Origin: an uncultured Flavobacteriales bacterium
Lineage (GTDB): Bacteria > Bacteroidota > Bacteroidia > Flavobacteriales_D > Sanyastnellaceae
Direction of reading: 5' to 3'
Length of the DNA: 36,564 bases
NCBI GenBank assembly: GCA_937881575.1
Contig: CALGEI010000085.1
Coordinates: forward strand, 1-36,564
The notes beneath the pieces were generated by a model that was given only the letters and a program-made list of their open reading frames with translations, searched no databases and was not told where the DNA came from. Each line of letters opens with the position of its first letter. The first letter of the stretch is position 1. The position numbers were made by a program, and so were the translations under genes. Below are positions 31,762 through 36,564 of this stretch, piece after piece.

Positions 31762-31806
31762 CCTTTTAAAGAAAAAAAGCGCTTCGACCTTCGCGATTTA
31801 ATGCCG

Positions 31807-31813
31807 TAATTTG
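31807..31813 (+). promoter_or_regulatory. Weak -7-like element before tRNA-Leu
   Basis: TAATTTG is one base shorter than the consensus TAnnTTTG and lies 18 bp upstream of tRNA-Leu. No clear -33 element is seen, so this is only a candidate. Confidence 0.3.
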
Positions 31814-31831
31814 CAGCGTGGTTCGCCACAT

Positions 31832-31918
31832 GCCTGGATGGTGGAATTGGTAGACACGACAGACTTAAAATCTGTTGACCTCAGGGTCGTGCGGGTTCAA
31901 GTCCCGCTCCGGGTACCA
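31832..31918 (+). tRNA. tRNA-Leu (anticodon UAA)
   Basis: A class II tRNA. Acceptor GCCTGGA pairs with TCCGGGT (G-T at the first pair, T-G at the fourth). The anticodon stem ACAGA/TCTGT encloses CTTAAAA, anticodon TAA. A long variable arm (TGACCTCAGGGTCG) and the T-arm GGGTTCAAGTCCC follow. Discriminator A at 31915 and an encoded CCA at 31916-31918. Confidence 0.95.
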
Positions 31919-31920
31919 AG

Positions 31921-31953
31921 CGGGAGATTGCAGCGATGCGGTCTCCCGTTTTT
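31921..31953 (+). terminator. Rho-independent terminator after tRNA-Leu
   Basis: CGGGAGA (31921-31927) pairs with TCTCCCG (31942-31948) and is followed by five T. It shows that the tRNA unit is complete and that the recombinase region begins after it. Confidence 0.85.
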
Positions 31954-31958
31954 GGTTT

Positions 31959-31998
31959 TTCATCTTGTAACTGACTGACTGACTGACTGAAAGATGAA
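31959..31998. repeat. (CTGA)5 tract bracketed by an 8-bp inverted repeat
   Basis: Five perfect CTGA units occupy 31971-31990. TTCATCTT (31959-31966) and AAGATGAA (31991-31998) are a perfect inverted repeat around them. The tract encodes the last residues (SVSQSVTR) of the recombinase on the minus strand; loss or gain of one 4-bp unit would change the frame at the very C-terminus. On the minus strand the hairpin is followed by an A/C-rich stretch, not a T-run, so it is not a standard terminator. Confidence 0.85.
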
Positions 31999-33459
31999 GC
32001 CGAACCCTTCCTTGAAGACTGGGGTTCGATACTTTCCCCCCTTCAACTCCAATTTTTCCGCGAGTATCGAACCCAGTAGTTGATGTTTGGTTTCAACGGA
32101 TGCTTTTTCGAATACCGCTTCGAGGTTGGTGAGCAGCGAAATTCCGAATGGAATGAAGTCTTCGATTCCCGTATCCGTTCCATTGAGGCGATCGATGTGA
32201 GCATTCACTTCATTCATCTTGCCGTCAAGATTGGATATATGGGTCTGATAATCCGCGTTGCTGACGATTCCCTCAAGTAGCTTATCCAGGAGAGCGTCCT
32301 TCTTGTTTTGGAGCGTTTTAAGTGTCTTCTCGGCTTGTTTTAGCTCCGATACGGCTGAGTTGTTTCGGGTGTTGAATTCATCCCTCAGAATCGCTTCAAA
32401 TAGCTGCGCTACACCGTCTTTGGGTCGGATTGATTCCAACAACGTATTGAAGGCCTTATGGTGCTCTTGTCGCCTGCCACGGTAGTCGCATCCGAGACGT
32501 GAATTGCAGTGGTAGTAAAAGTGCTTTATGCCGGATTTACTTTTCGATCCGCTACCGGTCAGATTTCGACTGCACTTTGGACACTTGAGGTGGCCTCTGA
32601 GTGGTAGTTCTGGATTGAATTTTTGTGCTTTTGGGGCTTGCTTCTTGCGGTGGTTTCGTATTTCCTGGACCTTTTGAAAGGTGCCCATTGATACCAGTGA
32701 TTCATGCTGTCCGATAATTGTTGTTTCAACCTCTTCGTCAAAGGCGGGGAGGGTAATTCGGCCGGTATATATTTCGTTCGATAGGATGCGACTGAGGTTG
32801 CTTTTTGTTAGTTTGAGGAGTGAGAATCGTTCGTCTTTGAGGAGTTGGTTTTGGGAAAAACGCCCCGTAGCAAAACACTTGAAGAGGGCAGATATTAGGC
32901 GCGCTTTCACCGGGTCTGGCTGCATCAAAACCTTGCTCGCAGCATCTTTTCCAGGCATATAACCCAAGGGTTGTTTGCCGTTGTACCGTCCTTCTTTGAG
33001 TCCTTGACGCAGGCCTTCTTTGGTTCGGTATGCGCGCATTCTATTGTCGGACTCGGGTAGAGATAAGTTCAGTATGTTTGGTATGAAGTGATTTGGCGAA
33101 TCCCAATTGGTCCAGTTGTGGATGGCATTCACTTCAATTTTACATTCTCTTAATTCGTTGATTTTACCCAACGAAAGCATCAAGTTTCGACTGAAACGGT
33201 CGAATTGTGTGACGAGTAGTAAATCTATTTCGTTCTTTCTCAATTTGACGAAGCGCAACAATTCTTGAAAGACAGGTCGGTTTTCAAAGTCTTTTGCGGA
33301 GTGATCCTCTTGAAATTCCTTGATTATTTCAACTCCGTTGGTAAGACAGAATTGTCTGAGGGAGTCGCGCTGAGCATCGAGGCTGTTGCCGTGAATACGT
33401 TGGTCGGTCGTGCTTACTCTGCGATAGAGAATTGCTCGTTTTCCTCGGAGGTTATTCAT
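31960..33459 (-). CDS. Large serine recombinase
   Basis: A 499-residue site-specific recombinase. Residues about 8-150 are the resolvase catalytic domain: AILYRRVSTTDQ with nucleophile Ser16, NSLDAQRDSLRQF, and LLVTQFDRFSRNL. Residues about 160-280 are the Recombinase (PF07508-type) DNA-binding domain (GLRQGLKEGRYNGKQPLGY, LSRILSNEIYTGRI). A zinc ribbon follows (CPKC then C and C after HFYYH), then a coiled coil near residues 370-430. Such enzymes integrate, excise or invert DNA. The start at 33459 (MNNLRGKRAILYRR) is favoured; its ATGAATAA overlaps the stop of the 59-codon gene upstream. The C-terminus is encoded by a CTGA repeat tract. Confidence 0.93.
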   Translation of the reverse strand: MNNLRGKRAILYRRVSTTDQRIHGNSLDAQRDSLRQFCLTNGVEIIKEFQEDHSAKDFENRPVFQELLRFVKLRKNEIDLLLVTQFDRFSRNLMLSLGKINELRECKIEVNAIHNWTNWDSPNHFIPNILNLSLPESDNRMRAYRTKEGLRQGLKEGRYNGKQPLGYMPGKDAASKVLMQPDPVKARLISALFKCFATGRFSQNQLLKDERFSLLKLTKSNLSRILSNEIYTGRITLPAFDEEVETTIIGQHESLVSMGTFQKVQEIRNHRKKQAPKAQKFNPELPLRGHLKCPKCSRNLTGSGSKSKSGIKHFYYHCNSRLGCDYRGRRQEHHKAFNTLLESIRPKDGVAQLFEAILRDEFNTRNNSAVSELKQAEKTLKTLQNKKDALLDKLLEGIVSNADYQTHISNLDGKMNEVNAHIDRLNGTDTGIEDFIPFGISLLTNLEAVFEKASVETKHQLLGSILAEKLELKGGKYRTPVFKEGFGFIFQSVSQSVTR

Positions 33460-33631
33460 TTCTGTGGTTGACTTCGTTAATAGCGATGTCTGCGAGATTA
33501 TACAGACACTCACGGATGATTCGGGCTTCTTCTTTGGTAAACGAGTTGTTCGATGAATTTAATATTTCATGGCATTTCTCAATGGATAACATGAAAGGTG
33601 ATGAGGTGCAGATCGCTTGGTCGATGACCAT
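33452..33631 (-). CDS. 59-residue protein upstream of and overlapping the recombinase
   Basis: A short reading frame from ATG at 33631 to TAA at 33452-33454. It reads MVIDQAICTSSPFMLSIEKC, continues through FTKEEARIIRECLYNLADIA and ends INEVNHRNE, with an amphipathic helix in the middle and Lys/Glu-rich composition typical of a real small protein. Its last eight bases overlap the recombinase start (ATGAATAA), which points to translational coupling. The frame stays open upstream of the ATG (HPVRKAHIQ), without another standard start, so the N-terminus could be longer. I do not know the family; a helper or regulator of recombination is inference from position. Confidence 0.7.
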   Translation of the reverse strand: MVIDQAICTSSPFMLSIEKCHEILNSSNNSFTKEEARIIRECLYNLADIAINEVNHRNE

Positions 33632-33665
33632 TTGGATGTGCGCTTTTCTGACAGGATGCGATGCA

Positions 33666-33977
33666 TCATTGTTTCTTGATGTGCTTGGAGGCGGTCAGCT
33701 GGAACTTGGATTTTCCGTTGCGGACCGACTCTTCCAAAATGCAGAAGTCATGAAGTTGTTTCGCGGCCAAGGCCGCAGTTCGGTTTTCCATTATCTGAGT
33801 CGATTTAAGAACGTATTTGGTCTCTTTTGACTCTATAGTCACCTCCTTGATTTCTGGGGTGTCCAAGGCGCTTGAAATCGCTCTCTCTATCTCTGATTTA
33901 GATTCTCGCAGGTAGTTGACAGCAGAGCCTAATTTCCCGAGCATTCGATTGATGTCGATGCTGATGAAGTCATCCAT
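33666..33977 (-). CDS. Unknown small protein of the recombinase unit
   Basis: A 103-residue frame starting MDDFISIDINRMLGKLGSAV, predominantly helical, charged, ending KSKFQLTASKHIKKQ. There is no signal peptide or membrane helix. It lies 34 bp upstream of the 59-codon gene and about 200 bp upstream of the recombinase, same strand. The frame is open upstream to a GTG at 34067, but that part overlaps the rluA remnant and its first residues (PGGEALIG) look like displaced RluA sequence, so the natural start is unclear; in-frame residues QEEIDVALQYGFI just before the ATG could belong to it. No recognised family. Confidence 0.6.
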   Translation of the reverse strand: MDDFISIDINRMLGKLGSAVNYLRESKSEIERAISSALDTPEIKEVTIESKETKYVLKSTQIMENRTAALAAKQLHDFCILEESVRNGKSKFQLTASKHIKKQ

Positions 33978-34024
33978 GATAAAGCCGTATTGAAGAGCGA
34001 CGTCAATCTCCTCTTGCGAACCAA

Positions 34025-34243
34025 TTAACGCTTCGCCACCTGGGAATACGAGCAGACGAGCTGGCACAGGGTGGTGTCGCCGCTGGAGTCGCTCTGCACG
34101 ATGTCCGACGAGCGCTTGTTGACGGCAATGATGTGGTTGTCTTCGTAAAGCACGTCGAGGTTATCCACCGTGCTCATGACGATGGGGGCCTTGGGTTGGC
34201 GTGCCCAATGCGACGGGCTAGCGACGTCGGAACGGTCGCTCAT
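34025..34243 (-). pseudogene. Truncated RluA-family pseudouridine synthase
   Basis: A 72-codon frame whose residues 28-66 match the N-terminus of RluA-type pseudouridine synthases of Bacteroidota: LDVLYEDNHIIAVNKR, DIVQSD, GDTTLCQLV. It then stops (SQVAKR, TAA). The usual protein is over 220 residues, and the catalytic HRLDRPxSG motif and everything after it is missing from the whole window. In another frame right after the break, PGGEALIG (about 34020-34043) resembles the KPGEAFLG that precedes the HRLD motif, which suggests a small out-of-frame deletion as well as the loss of the 3' part. It follows panB by 3 bp, the usual gene order in flavobacteria. Confidence 0.8.
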
Positions 34244-34246
34244 GGT

Positions 34247-35011
34247 TCAGTACTGTTCGTCTTCGTTGGGGAAATCGCGTGTGCGGACGTCCTTGACATA
34301 CTGCTGTATGGCCGAATTCATTTGTTCGCCCATGTCGAGGTAGCGTCGCAGGAAACGCGGACTGAATTCTTGGGTGATGCCCAACATGTCGTGCAACACG
34401 AGGACCTGACCGTCGCATCCGCTTCCTGCTCCGATGCCGATGGTGGGGCATTGGATGGAGGCGCTCACCTCTTTGGCCAAACCGGCTGGGATCTTCTCAA
34501 AAACGACTGAAAAGCAGCCAATTTCATCGAGCATTTTTGCATCTGCTCGCAGTTGCTCTGCTTCCATTTCTTCCTTCGCCCGCACGGTGTAAGTGCCAAA
34601 CTTGTAGATGGACTGTGGCGTTAAGCCGAGGTGTCCCATGACGGGAATGCCGGCCGTGAGGATGCGTTCGATGCTCTCGCGGACTTCCCTGCCTCCTTCG
34701 AGTTTCACGGCATGGGCGCCGCTTTCTTTCATAATCCGAATGGCGGAGTTCAAGGCTTCTTTCGAATTGCCTTGATACGTGCCAAAGGGGAGGTCCACCA
34801 CCACCAACGCACGCTTCGCCGCCCGCACCACACTCGACGCGTGGTAAATCATGTGGTCCAACGTGATGGGCAATGTGGTTTCGTGCCCGGCCATGACGTT
34901 GGAGGCGCTGTCCCCGACGAGAATGACGTCTACGCCGGCTTGATCGACGATGGTCGCCATGGAGTAATCATAGGCCGTTAGCATGGCGATCGGTTCGCCA
35001 TTGGCCTTCAT
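34247..35011 (-). CDS. panB: Ketopantoate hydroxymethyltransferase, N-terminally shortened by a stop codon
   Basis: A 254-residue PanB that makes ketopantoate from 2-ketoisovalerate and methylene-THF for pantothenate synthesis. [47 protein letters not shown], the catalytic Glu in VFEKIPAG and [10 protein letters not shown] are all present, and the ending FPNEDEQY is family-like. Directly before MKANGE the same frame continues through TAA to an ATG at 35062 and reads MSVHQSAKRITTQVLA, the ordinary Bacteroidota PanB N-terminus. So codon 17, normally Glu, is TAA. Translation could restart at the adjacent ATG (TAAATG); the TIM barrel would be intact. Otherwise the gene is a pseudogene or the base is a sequencing error. 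Confidence 0.88.
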
Positions 35012-35062
35012 TTACGCAAGCACTTGGGTCGTGATGCGTTTGGCTGATTGATGAACGGACAT
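35012..35062 (-). other. Separated 5' coding end of panB ending in TAA
   Basis: Seventeen codons: ATG at 35062, MSVHQSAKRITTQVLA, then TAA at 35012-35014, directly followed by the ATG of the main panB frame. The KRITT segment and the spacing to MKANGE match full-length PanB proteins of Bacteroidota, where a Glu stands in place of the stop. Confidence 0.85.
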
Positions 35063-35309
35063 GCTAAAAGGAAATTATTCACCTCAAAGTTAACGTACGC
35101 TTTGGGTGCTTCTGTAGGGTAGAAACATTTTTTCGCGTTCTCCGTATCCTAGGTGAAATGGATTTCATGGAACATCTACTTGGCCCTATGACTTATCGGA
35201 CATGTAATACCTCTCAAATGACTTTATTAATTGTTTAATATGATATAACAGTATGTCAGATGATTTTTTTTTTCGTATATTTCCTCTTCTTAATTTTAAA
35301 TCTGTCGTT
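35063..35309. other. AT-rich divergent intergenic region
   Basis: These 247 bp separate panB from the divergent secreted repeat protein. The half next to the repeat protein is A+T-rich with a ten-base T-run (35263-35273). TATATTTC at 35276-35283 is a near match to the -7 element TAnnTTTG about 27 bp before the start codon, but no good -33 element is visible. No RNA gene or ORF is recognised. Confidence 0.5.
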
Positions 35310-36564
35310 ATGCATATTTTCCGTTTATTTTCTGCATTGGCCGTTGTTATCAGCTTTTCTACGGGAAATGTTCAAGCTCAACTCGACGAACAAGTCCCTT
35401 ACCAAGGCGACACCTTGTTGACGAACCCCAATCAGTTCCGGGTCACCTCAGCAGGTGATGTCCTGATGGACTGTGACTGGCCCGCAATGATGGCCATGAT
35501 CCGTGACCTCGAAGAACGCATCGCTGGTGAAACCGAAACCGATACAACCTACGGCGTCTACGTCTCAGGCGGTATCAATGGAAACGACCTCAATATGTGG
35601 TACGATTGCCTGGTGCTGCGCGATTCGATCTTATCGCTTCAGGTGACCTATGATGAGGCGTTGGCACCGAGGGTGACGGTAGATGCTGCGGTAGTGCTCT
35701 CAGACACCAGTGCCGCTCTGAGTGCAAGCTTCAGTGGAAGCGGGGTGGGAGCCTCGGGATTTGCCTGGGCCGAGGATTATACGACGACCCCACAAGTAGG
35801 AGACGATACCGGAACGACCAGTCCCATCGCTGATACGTTGACCGGCCTGGACGCTGGAACGGTCTATTACTTCTCAGCATTTGCGGTCAAGGAGGCTGAG
35901 TACTTTTATGGGGATACCCTCTCCTTCTTGACAATGCCGGGCATCACCACCGACGCAGCGGATGAGCTGACCACAGTGTCCGCCACCCTGAACGCAACGT
36001 TCTCGGCGGATTCGATTACAGCACAAGGCTTCGTGTGGGGATTGGAGGAGGATTTGAGCGATGGTGCGAGCGTGTCTGCTGATACTACCGGTGGCAGCAC
36101 CGCGATTGAGTACGCGGTATCAGGATTGACACCGGGTAAGGTTCGCTACGTCAGTGCGTATGCGACCAATGCTTCAGGCACGACTTATGGAGACACGATT
36201 GCACTGCTCACAAGTCCGGGCATCACCACCGATGCAGCGGATGAGCTCGCCGCCGTGTCTGCCACCTTGAACGCAACGTTCTCGGCGGATTCGATCACCG
36301 CACAAGGCTTCGTGTGGGGATTGCAAGCCGATTTAAGCGACGGAGCGAACGTTTCTGCCGACTCGACCGGTGGCAGCACAGCAATCGAGTACTCGGTATC
36401 GGGATTGACACCGGGGACGATTCATTACGTCAGTGCGTATGCCACCAACGCTTCAGGAACGACCTATGGAGACACGATTGCGCTGCTCACAAGTCCGGGC
36501 ATTACCACCGACGCAGCGGATGAGCTCACCGCAGAATCGGCCACGTTGAATTCCACGTTCTCAG
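35310..36564 (+). CDS. Secreted repeat protein with 93-residue modules (3' end outside window)
   Basis: The frame runs without a stop from ATG at 35310 to the window edge, 418 codons. MHIFRLFSALAVVISFSTG...VQAQ is a signal peptide. Residues about 25-110 are a unique region containing EERIAGETETDTTYGVYVSG, which looks like a lead-in of Bacteroidota secreted proteins. From about residue 125 on there are Fn3/Ig-like modules with the pattern SATLNATFSADSITAQGFVW, then DTTGGSTAIEY and SGLTPGTIHYVSAYATNASG. The module length is 93 residues. A T9SS sorting tail would be expected downstream but cannot be seen. Surface adhesion is inference. Confidence 0.9.
   Translation, partial: MHIFRLFSALAVVISFSTGNVQAQLDEQVPYQGDTLLTNPNQFRVTSAGDVLMDCDWPAMMAMIRDLEERIAGETETDTTYGVYVSGGINGNDLNMWYDCLVLRDSILSLQVTYDEALAPRVTVDAAVVLSDTSAALSASFSGSGVGASGFAWAEDYTTTPQVGDDTGTTSPIADTLTGLDAGTVYYFSAFAVKEAEYFYGDTLSFLTMPGITTDAADELTTVSATLNATFSADSITAQGFVWGLEEDLSDGASVSADTTGGSTAIEYAVSGLTPGKVRYVSAYATNASGTTYGDTIALLTSPGITTDAADELAAVSATLNATFSADSITAQGFVWGLQADLSDGANVSADSTGGSTAIEYSVSGLTPGTIHYVSAYATNASGTTYGDTIALLTSPGITTDAADELTAESATLNSTFS
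35940..36564 (+). repeat. 279-bp tandem repeats in the secreted repeat protein
   Basis: GGCATCACCACCGA-type unit starts fall at 35940, 36219 and 36498, exactly 279 bp (93 codons) apart. The first two full units are highly similar over most of their length with scattered substitutions; the third is cut by the window edge. A more diverged unit precedes them (about 35661-35939). Confidence 0.9.

Follow-up and report, generated by a model that had tools for sequence, protein, structure and literature searches.

A putative genomic island at tRNA-Leu(TAA) with a large serine recombinase and a foreign-looking panB-rluA fragment in an uncultured Flavobacteriales bacterium

Introduction

Large serine integrases, phiC31 among them, are those of certain phages, integrative and conjugative elements, and integrative and mobilizable elements. 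The Ccr proteins of the staphylococcal cassette chromosome mec (SCCmec), whose insertion site is the 3' end of rlmH, are also large serine recombinases. The archaeal SSV-type integrases, of the tyrosine family, have a gene that is split by integration. Here we analyze a large serine recombinase unit that lies between a tRNA-Leu(TAA) gene and a truncated rluA gene of an uncultured Flavobacteriales bacterium. The window, i.e., the whole stretch of DNA analyzed, is the entire contig C85 (36,564 bp) of an assembly of 213 contigs with an estimated completeness of 99% and an estimated contamination of 1.22%. C-numbers denote contigs (of this genome unless G-prefixed), G-numbers related genomes, and L-numbers loci.

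According to passages of PMC8092301, PMC5704250, and PMC6109161, serine integrases use short cores, mostly within coding genes that are often disrupted, and tyrosine integrases typically use tRNA ends. NBU1 and the 10K island of R. anatipestifer, as outlined in excerpts of PMC5704250 and PMC6764341, have a tyrosine integrase, sit at a tRNA 3' end or adjoin a tRNA, and are equipped with direct repeats and cargo. In the sections of PMC7426155 that present the two programs, Islander finds tyrosine integrase elements at tRNA and transfer-messenger RNA (tmRNA) genes and TIGER finds elements of both integrase types at any site; elements with a tRNA-sited serine integrase may already be in the TIGER database. 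No description of a tRNA/tmRNA-sited serine integrase family was found in the literature searched, which did not comprise the mapping paper 10.1093/nar/gkaa156, and this is no proof of novelty. A search for the word tRNA gave no result in a serine recombinase survey's main text (PMC10083194), and an excerpted table of PMC12884075 counts tRNA sites with no split by integrase type.

Results

A genomic island inserted at the 3' end of tRNA-Leu(TAA) probably makes up the DNA between 31.9 kb and the end of the contig, with a foreign panB-rluA' piece as a passenger (rluA' being the 5' fragment of rluA). An earlier note on this DNA had described an rluA frame lost behind panB and followed by minus-strand open reading frames (ORFs), a serine recombinase, and the tRNA-Leu terminator, all of which are present. 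On the minus strand the order is panB, the rluA start, a 133-amino-acid ORF, a 59-amino-acid ORF, the large serine recombinase, and the terminator of tRNA-Leu(TAA). The features between the tRNA and the contig end are as follows.

31832 to 31918, plus strand: tRNA-Leu(TAA), putative integration target 3' of kdtA (called by ARAGORN)
31901 to 31960, no strand: putative left attachment (att) site, comprising the tRNA 3' end and terminator hairpin (same sequence at both ends of the G032 element)
31970 to 31989, no strand: (ACTG)5 repeat at the 3' terminus of the recombinase gene (G032 has four units; the extra one gives a +4 frameshift)
31960 to 33513, minus strand, probable start 33459: large serine recombinase of a putative tRNA-targeting integrase family (76% identity to the G032 recombinase)
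33452 to 33631, minus strand: 59-amino-acid ORF (G032 has a counterpart before its recombinase)
33666 to 34062, minus strand: C-terminal part of the element's 284-amino-acid gene, i.e., the 133-amino-acid ORF (alignment to L088, 3229 to 4083)
34046 to 34066, no strand: junction at which the element gene meets the rluA fragment, placed to within about 20 bp (sequence alignments)
34050 to 34243, minus strand: rluA 5' fragment, apparent second copy of foreign affinity (about 64 codons of an RluA-type frame, then lost)
34247 to 35062, minus strand: panB, apparent second copy of foreign affinity (TAA at 35012 to 35014 and next ATG at 35011, giving an ORF from 34247 to 35011)
35310 to 36564, plus strand: repeat-rich surface-protein gene, 5' part only, possible island cargo (cut by the contig end)

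The recombinase unit would be the left end of an integrative element whose att core, consisting of the tRNA 3' end and its terminator, would rebuild the tRNA upon insertion. A comparison is offered by a 5,918-bp contig of G032 that ends at the equivalent tRNA-Leu(TAA), its recombinase region being 80% alike to that of the window. Both ends of this contig consist of the tRNA 3' end plus terminator, and between these perfect 53-bp direct repeats, which rebuild the tRNA 3' end, lies a related 5.7-kb element. It encodes a C5 DNA methyltransferase with a helix-turn-helix and an HNH protein (probably a restriction-modification pair), a 284-amino-acid protein, a 59-amino-acid ORF, and the recombinase. 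One correction to the three-gene unit of the earlier note is that the 133-amino-acid ORF is the C-terminal half of the 284-amino-acid element protein, the front half of which is replaced by rluA' at the junction. That lost N-terminal half is where the 284-amino-acid protein has a Pfam MerR_1 match of 17.5 bits, below the cut-off. A Pfam scan of the G032 element's four other main proteins recognized no relaxase or conjugation gene; the window element is incomplete. The earlier note was right that a mobile element's recombinase is involved, and we infer that the window element is or was mobile.

The window contig holds the left end alone. Its att sequence is matched in the same genome on C82 (96%), C139 (86%), C34 (98%), and C144 (96%). 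On C144 the matching sequence belongs to an intact tRNA-Leu(CAG) that shares this terminator, and therefore not all att matches mark element ends; candidate right ends are C82 and C139. Beyond its right end, the G032 element is flanked by DNA that shares 99% identity over 127 bp with the flank of the tRNA-Leu(CAG) on C144; G002 has this stretch at 99% as well. Lying 3' of tRNA-Leu(CAG) and resembling, when read by eye, the 3' part of a gene for a FISUMP-type surface protein, it occurs at L107 (C144, 2991 to 3130) and, in G032 and G002, at L088 (1 to 127) and L112 (6452 to 6578). In these two genomes it sits beyond att copies on contigs bearing tRNA-Leu(TAA), which may mean exchange between two tRNA-Leu loci or misassembly. 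On C34 (L106, 3001 to 3276), a tRNA-Leu-type terminator/att adjoins a tRNA-Asn, a place at which G006 has a related serine recombinase, which suggests that an element once occupied a second tRNA and left this remnant.

The window protein is predicted to be a large serine recombinase of the long integrase type. It matches Pfam Resolvase (PF00239, 76.5 bits against a cut-off of 23.3, 2.9e-21), followed by Recombinase (PF07508, 29.1 bits against 21.1, 1.2e-06), and PHROG 95, integrase (1.7e-67). The zinc ribbon reached 21.9 bits against a PF13408 cut-off of 25.3, and cysteines C301, C304, and C332 are conserved in family alignments. Large serine integrases such as A118, TP901-1, and TnpX share the N-terminal Resolvase and the Recombinase domains and the conserved zinc-ribbon cysteines, and probably also the long helical C-terminal part, seen here in the predicted model of a relative. 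XisF was the best NCBIfam model and CcrB the second; the 74.3 bits of the latter are far below its cut-off of 900, and the target gene differs from that of the SCCmec Ccr recombinases.

The siting of the family was assessed in two samples. A set of 60 genomes yielded 22 recombinase places, of which 21, including the window, were examined; the recombinase 3' end meets a tRNA or tmRNA 3' end in 15 of them, three run off the contig, and three have no such RNA. A 37-residue remnant, the place left out, also adjoins a tRNA-Leu. The second sample consisted of the best 80 of at least 522 relatives in named genomes. In 61 of these 80, a convergent tRNA/tmRNA 3' end lies within 300 bp of the recombinase 3' end; none of the 80 has a same-sense RNA at that end or any RNA at the 5' end. 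The remaining 19 comprise 10 with an antisense of the T-loop, six with a tail of the type we call SN, and three with neither. These counts argue that the family targets tRNA/tmRNA genes at their 3' ends, in the window that of tRNA-Leu(TAA). The family is widespread in Bacteroidota.

Unlike the serine integrases described above, the window family sits at tRNA/tmRNA 3' ends, with a reading frame through the att core and, in G032, a 53-bp repeat. It shares the siting at a tRNA and, in G032, the direct repeats with the tRNA islands of tyrosine integrases and differs from them by its serine integrase.

A search for direct repeats (at least 16 nucleotides) up to 6 kb upstream of the 80 loci found nothing, and within about 20 kb upstream of 20 loci a long repeat was seen only at L167 (50 bp, exact). 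There, on CAJJBE010000002.1, two tandem recombinase copies (L167 and L169) lie about 13 kb apart with 1421 of 1422 bases equal, and the 50-bp exact repeat of the L167 tail region lies 17.7 kb upstream, a clean natural case of tandem elements. Relatives of the recombinase numbered 147 in phage records and 683 in plasmid records, all below 60% identity, and two in viral contigs, both with antisense-tRNA-like tails; a free circular form was not found among the phage, plasmid, and viral-contig records.

Of the readings raised in the earlier note, breakage of the host's rluA by insertion with deletion or by inversion is not supported. The assembly has eight pseudouridine synthases by family search, and on C199 a panB gene (91% protein identity to that of the window) stands directly before an intact rluA of 259 amino acids with no stops. 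An intact rluA joined to panB, which the earlier note had sought in reads as evidence against its reading, is thus present in the assembly, and the target of the element appears to be tRNA-Leu(TAA). Apart from its own gene, the whole C199 RluA protein as query matched the window fragment (81%) in the assembly, all further matches having 29 to 35% identity. The search that the note had proposed for an orphan rluA 3' part turned up none in the 213 contigs, absence from the assembly not being absence from the cell. A pseudouridine synthase on the short contig C81 was considered as the missing part and rejected, since it is a complete 202-amino-acid gene of another type.

The comparison with relatives, also proposed in the note, proved informative. 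The order exchanger, alkB-like, panB, rluA, trxB (labels by eye) is conserved in nine loci of the genus, including C199; the window retains only panB and the rluA start, and the DNA it shares with these loci is limited to 34046 to 35063. Over panB-rluA', the DNA identity with G006 is 85% and that with C199 is 77%. A tree built from 18 panB genes puts the window panB outside the host clade and groups that of C199 with G012, G008, and G015 (support 91/95). An approximately unbiased (AU) test rejected the window panB as sister of C199 (p 1.6e-8): the window panB-rluA' copy is not the sister of that on C199. The kdtA protein of the window is 95% identical to that of G015, 93% to G008, and 86% to G012, with at most 50% in other long matches. 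Because kdtA is thus closest to the same group as the C199 panB, the body of the contig appears native. The window panB has TAA at codon 17 of the usual frame, where 15 other copies (14 relatives and C199) have GAA or GAG. Its ratio of nonsynonymous to synonymous substitution rates (dN/dS) against G006 is 0.03, the same as between relatives, and a long neutral decay is therefore unlikely. The host's own panB-rluA is intact, on C199, and the window copy looks like a second, foreign one.

Several elements would have piled up at the tRNA-Leu site within the genus. A tRNA-Leu(TAA) was called 3' of kdtA in eight of 13 genus loci (L041 to L053); in the other five no tRNA was called, and several end there. 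G001:C9 has an empty site, where tRNA-Leu is followed within 130 bp by the chromosome found behind two att copies in G013:C10. Parts of the same chromosome, together with one att copy and the remains of older elements bearing recombinase tails, are on C139 of the host genome, which over 2.7 kb has 89% identity to the G012 region downstream of tRNA-Leu. The decayed elements at tRNA-Leu(TAA) on C139 (L109, 8143 to 11896) include a DJ-1/PfpI protein, a zinc-type dehydrogenase, a cyclic nucleotide-binding regulator, and two recombinase 3' remnants. A kdtA match is present in 14 genus relatives (a partial one in G004 and G007); eight of their contigs break within 280 bp past a complete kdtA, and the site is therefore hard to assemble.

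The recombinase unit had been described as having no cargo. This cannot be said, as the contig ends at 36564 inside the repeat-rich surface-protein gene, which, starting at 35310, may be island cargo because two relatives of it lie near a tRNA-Leu or att: on C144 the distance to tRNA-Leu(CAG) is 2.2 kb, and in G013:C10 the relative lies 4 kb before an att copy. A further relative is in G008. No att was seen near another relative on C194 of the same genome or within the 8 kb compared of G005:C64.

We also considered whether attP lies inside the integrase gene in this Bacteroidota-wide tRNA/tmRNA-targeting family, such that integration swaps the C-terminal tail, a proposal for which we hold the chances to be even. 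The circular form would encode a linker and a conserved SN-helix, and the integrated form would end in antisense-tRNA sequence. The recombinase frame is open from the gene end to the T-loop in 60 of the 61 RNA-adjacent loci, compared with three and eight for the other frames; the gene is therefore kept readable through the att core, which is the strongest evidence for tail exchange. The integrated gene of G032 terminates in antisense tRNA, and the joined circle would give a 578-amino-acid protein with a tail beginning QFSNSLFANLDEFRALKESL. A similar tail is present at the putative right ends on C82, C139, and G010 (whose contig starts just at the core). In two pairs that we chose out of six compared, 17 of 30 differences between tails fall at third codon positions (p 0.007). 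The SN motif was absent from all 61 RNA-adjacent tails. SN-like tails occur in six of the 19 recombinases with no called RNA, one of them (L209) with an internal stop; eight tails served to build the motif, and as six of these belong to the 80-locus set, those six match by construction. Six recombinases (L167, L178, L179, L189, L196, and L201) also have SN-like sequences upstream, at distances of 9 to 33 kb.

Several results weigh against a tail swap. Among the three G013 right ends, a frameshift affects one, and the remaining two lose similarity past the initial codons. When C139 is paired with G032 and with G010, third positions account for 17 of 42 and 17 of 37 differences. In 33 upstream regions, the true strand scored no better in att-core similarity than reversed or mismatched controls. 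The SN motif gave nine forward and seven reverse matches against a shuffled mean of 4.1. A post hoc restriction to the TCGAAC codons gave five versus zero, a weak result in which one of the five (L167) repeats a motif-building tail. In the predicted structure of a relative with a natural tail, the tail helix appears only at low confidence, at a predicted local distance difference test score of 42 to 44, with a predicted template modeling score of 0.41. If the exchange does occur, it would resemble the SSV-type integrases in having attP within the integrase gene. Integration cuts the SSV-type gene, however, and in the present family it would exchange no more than a short C-terminal tail. The ACTG repeat of the window (31970 to 31989) has five units, compared with four in G032, and the resulting +4 frameshift places a stop before the att core; the repeat is a possible contingency locus shifting the recombinase reading frame.

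Discussion

The tRNA-Leu(TAA) island has the better of the argument, and within it a piece of about 1 kb carrying rluA' and panB, from another lineage of the genus, would have been joined to the 284-amino-acid gene with little or no homology, removing its front half. We infer both this way of capture and the reality of the junction in the cell. The most serious competitor, improbable yet not negligible, is an assembly or binning chimera in which another genus member's panB-rluA' was joined to this strain's tRNA-Leu element end. The number of contigs, the estimated contamination, the contig breaks behind kdtA, the foreign look of panB, and the fact that no relative carries the junction are all in keeping with such an artifact. 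Chimeras from k-mer assemblers, however, usually need a longer shared word than the junction offers, there being no exact word of more than 10 nucleotides shared with the G032 element or five rluA loci, and the longest match of 33600 to 35320 in the assembly, apart from C199, spans 34 positions at 82%. The private stop codon of the window panB speaks against it as well.

Simple insertion into rluA had already appeared not to fit in the earlier note, and it was rejected here on the position of the junction within an element gene. A variant in which the element entered the rluA-panB of another species, with rluA as target, and the piece moved later would account for the recombinase unit directly adjoining rluA'; it is very unlikely given that the junction cuts the element within its own 284-amino-acid gene instead of at att and that most recombinase relatives examined sit at tRNA/tmRNA genes. 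Hardly credible is the inversion switch that the earlier note had raised, by which the recombinase would have relocated the rluA 3' part. Serine recombinases include invertases, and DNA-invertase families do match the window protein weakly, but the protein is of the long integrase type, the assembly has no such rluA 3' fragment elsewhere, and the inverted repeats (14 nucleotides or more) in 31800 to 36564 are just short ones of 14 to 28 nucleotides at 71 to 93%, not placed as invertible ends.

Some points count against the island and its foreign passenger. None of the 21 other genus genomes matches across the window junction. The right end lies off the contig, and naming C82 as that end is a guess. 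The G032 contig that serves as the model may itself join two tRNA-Leu loci. Placement of the window panB within the whole host clade was merely borderline rejected (AU p 0.058) and its grouping with the G006 side is weakly supported (80/64), so that the donor clade of panB is not fixed. Finally, given its frameshift, the window recombinase may be inactive, locked, or variable.

With the island as the explanation, an apparently broken housekeeping gene would turn out to be a foreign passenger. The data also point to a widespread class of serine integrases at tRNA/tmRNA ends, the sites that tyrosine integrases use. Tools that pair tRNA sites with tyrosine integrases only, as Islander is described to do, would miss this class; TIGER need not. 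The part worth following is the tRNA-targeting serine integrases whose tail integration may exchange. If it does, recombination would write a built-in switch of integrase state (e.g., direction, stability, or partner binding), with the tail presumably having a role in direction or stability. A C-terminus rewritten by integration would then provide a simple natural test system for direction control in serine integrases, which is relevant to their use as tools.

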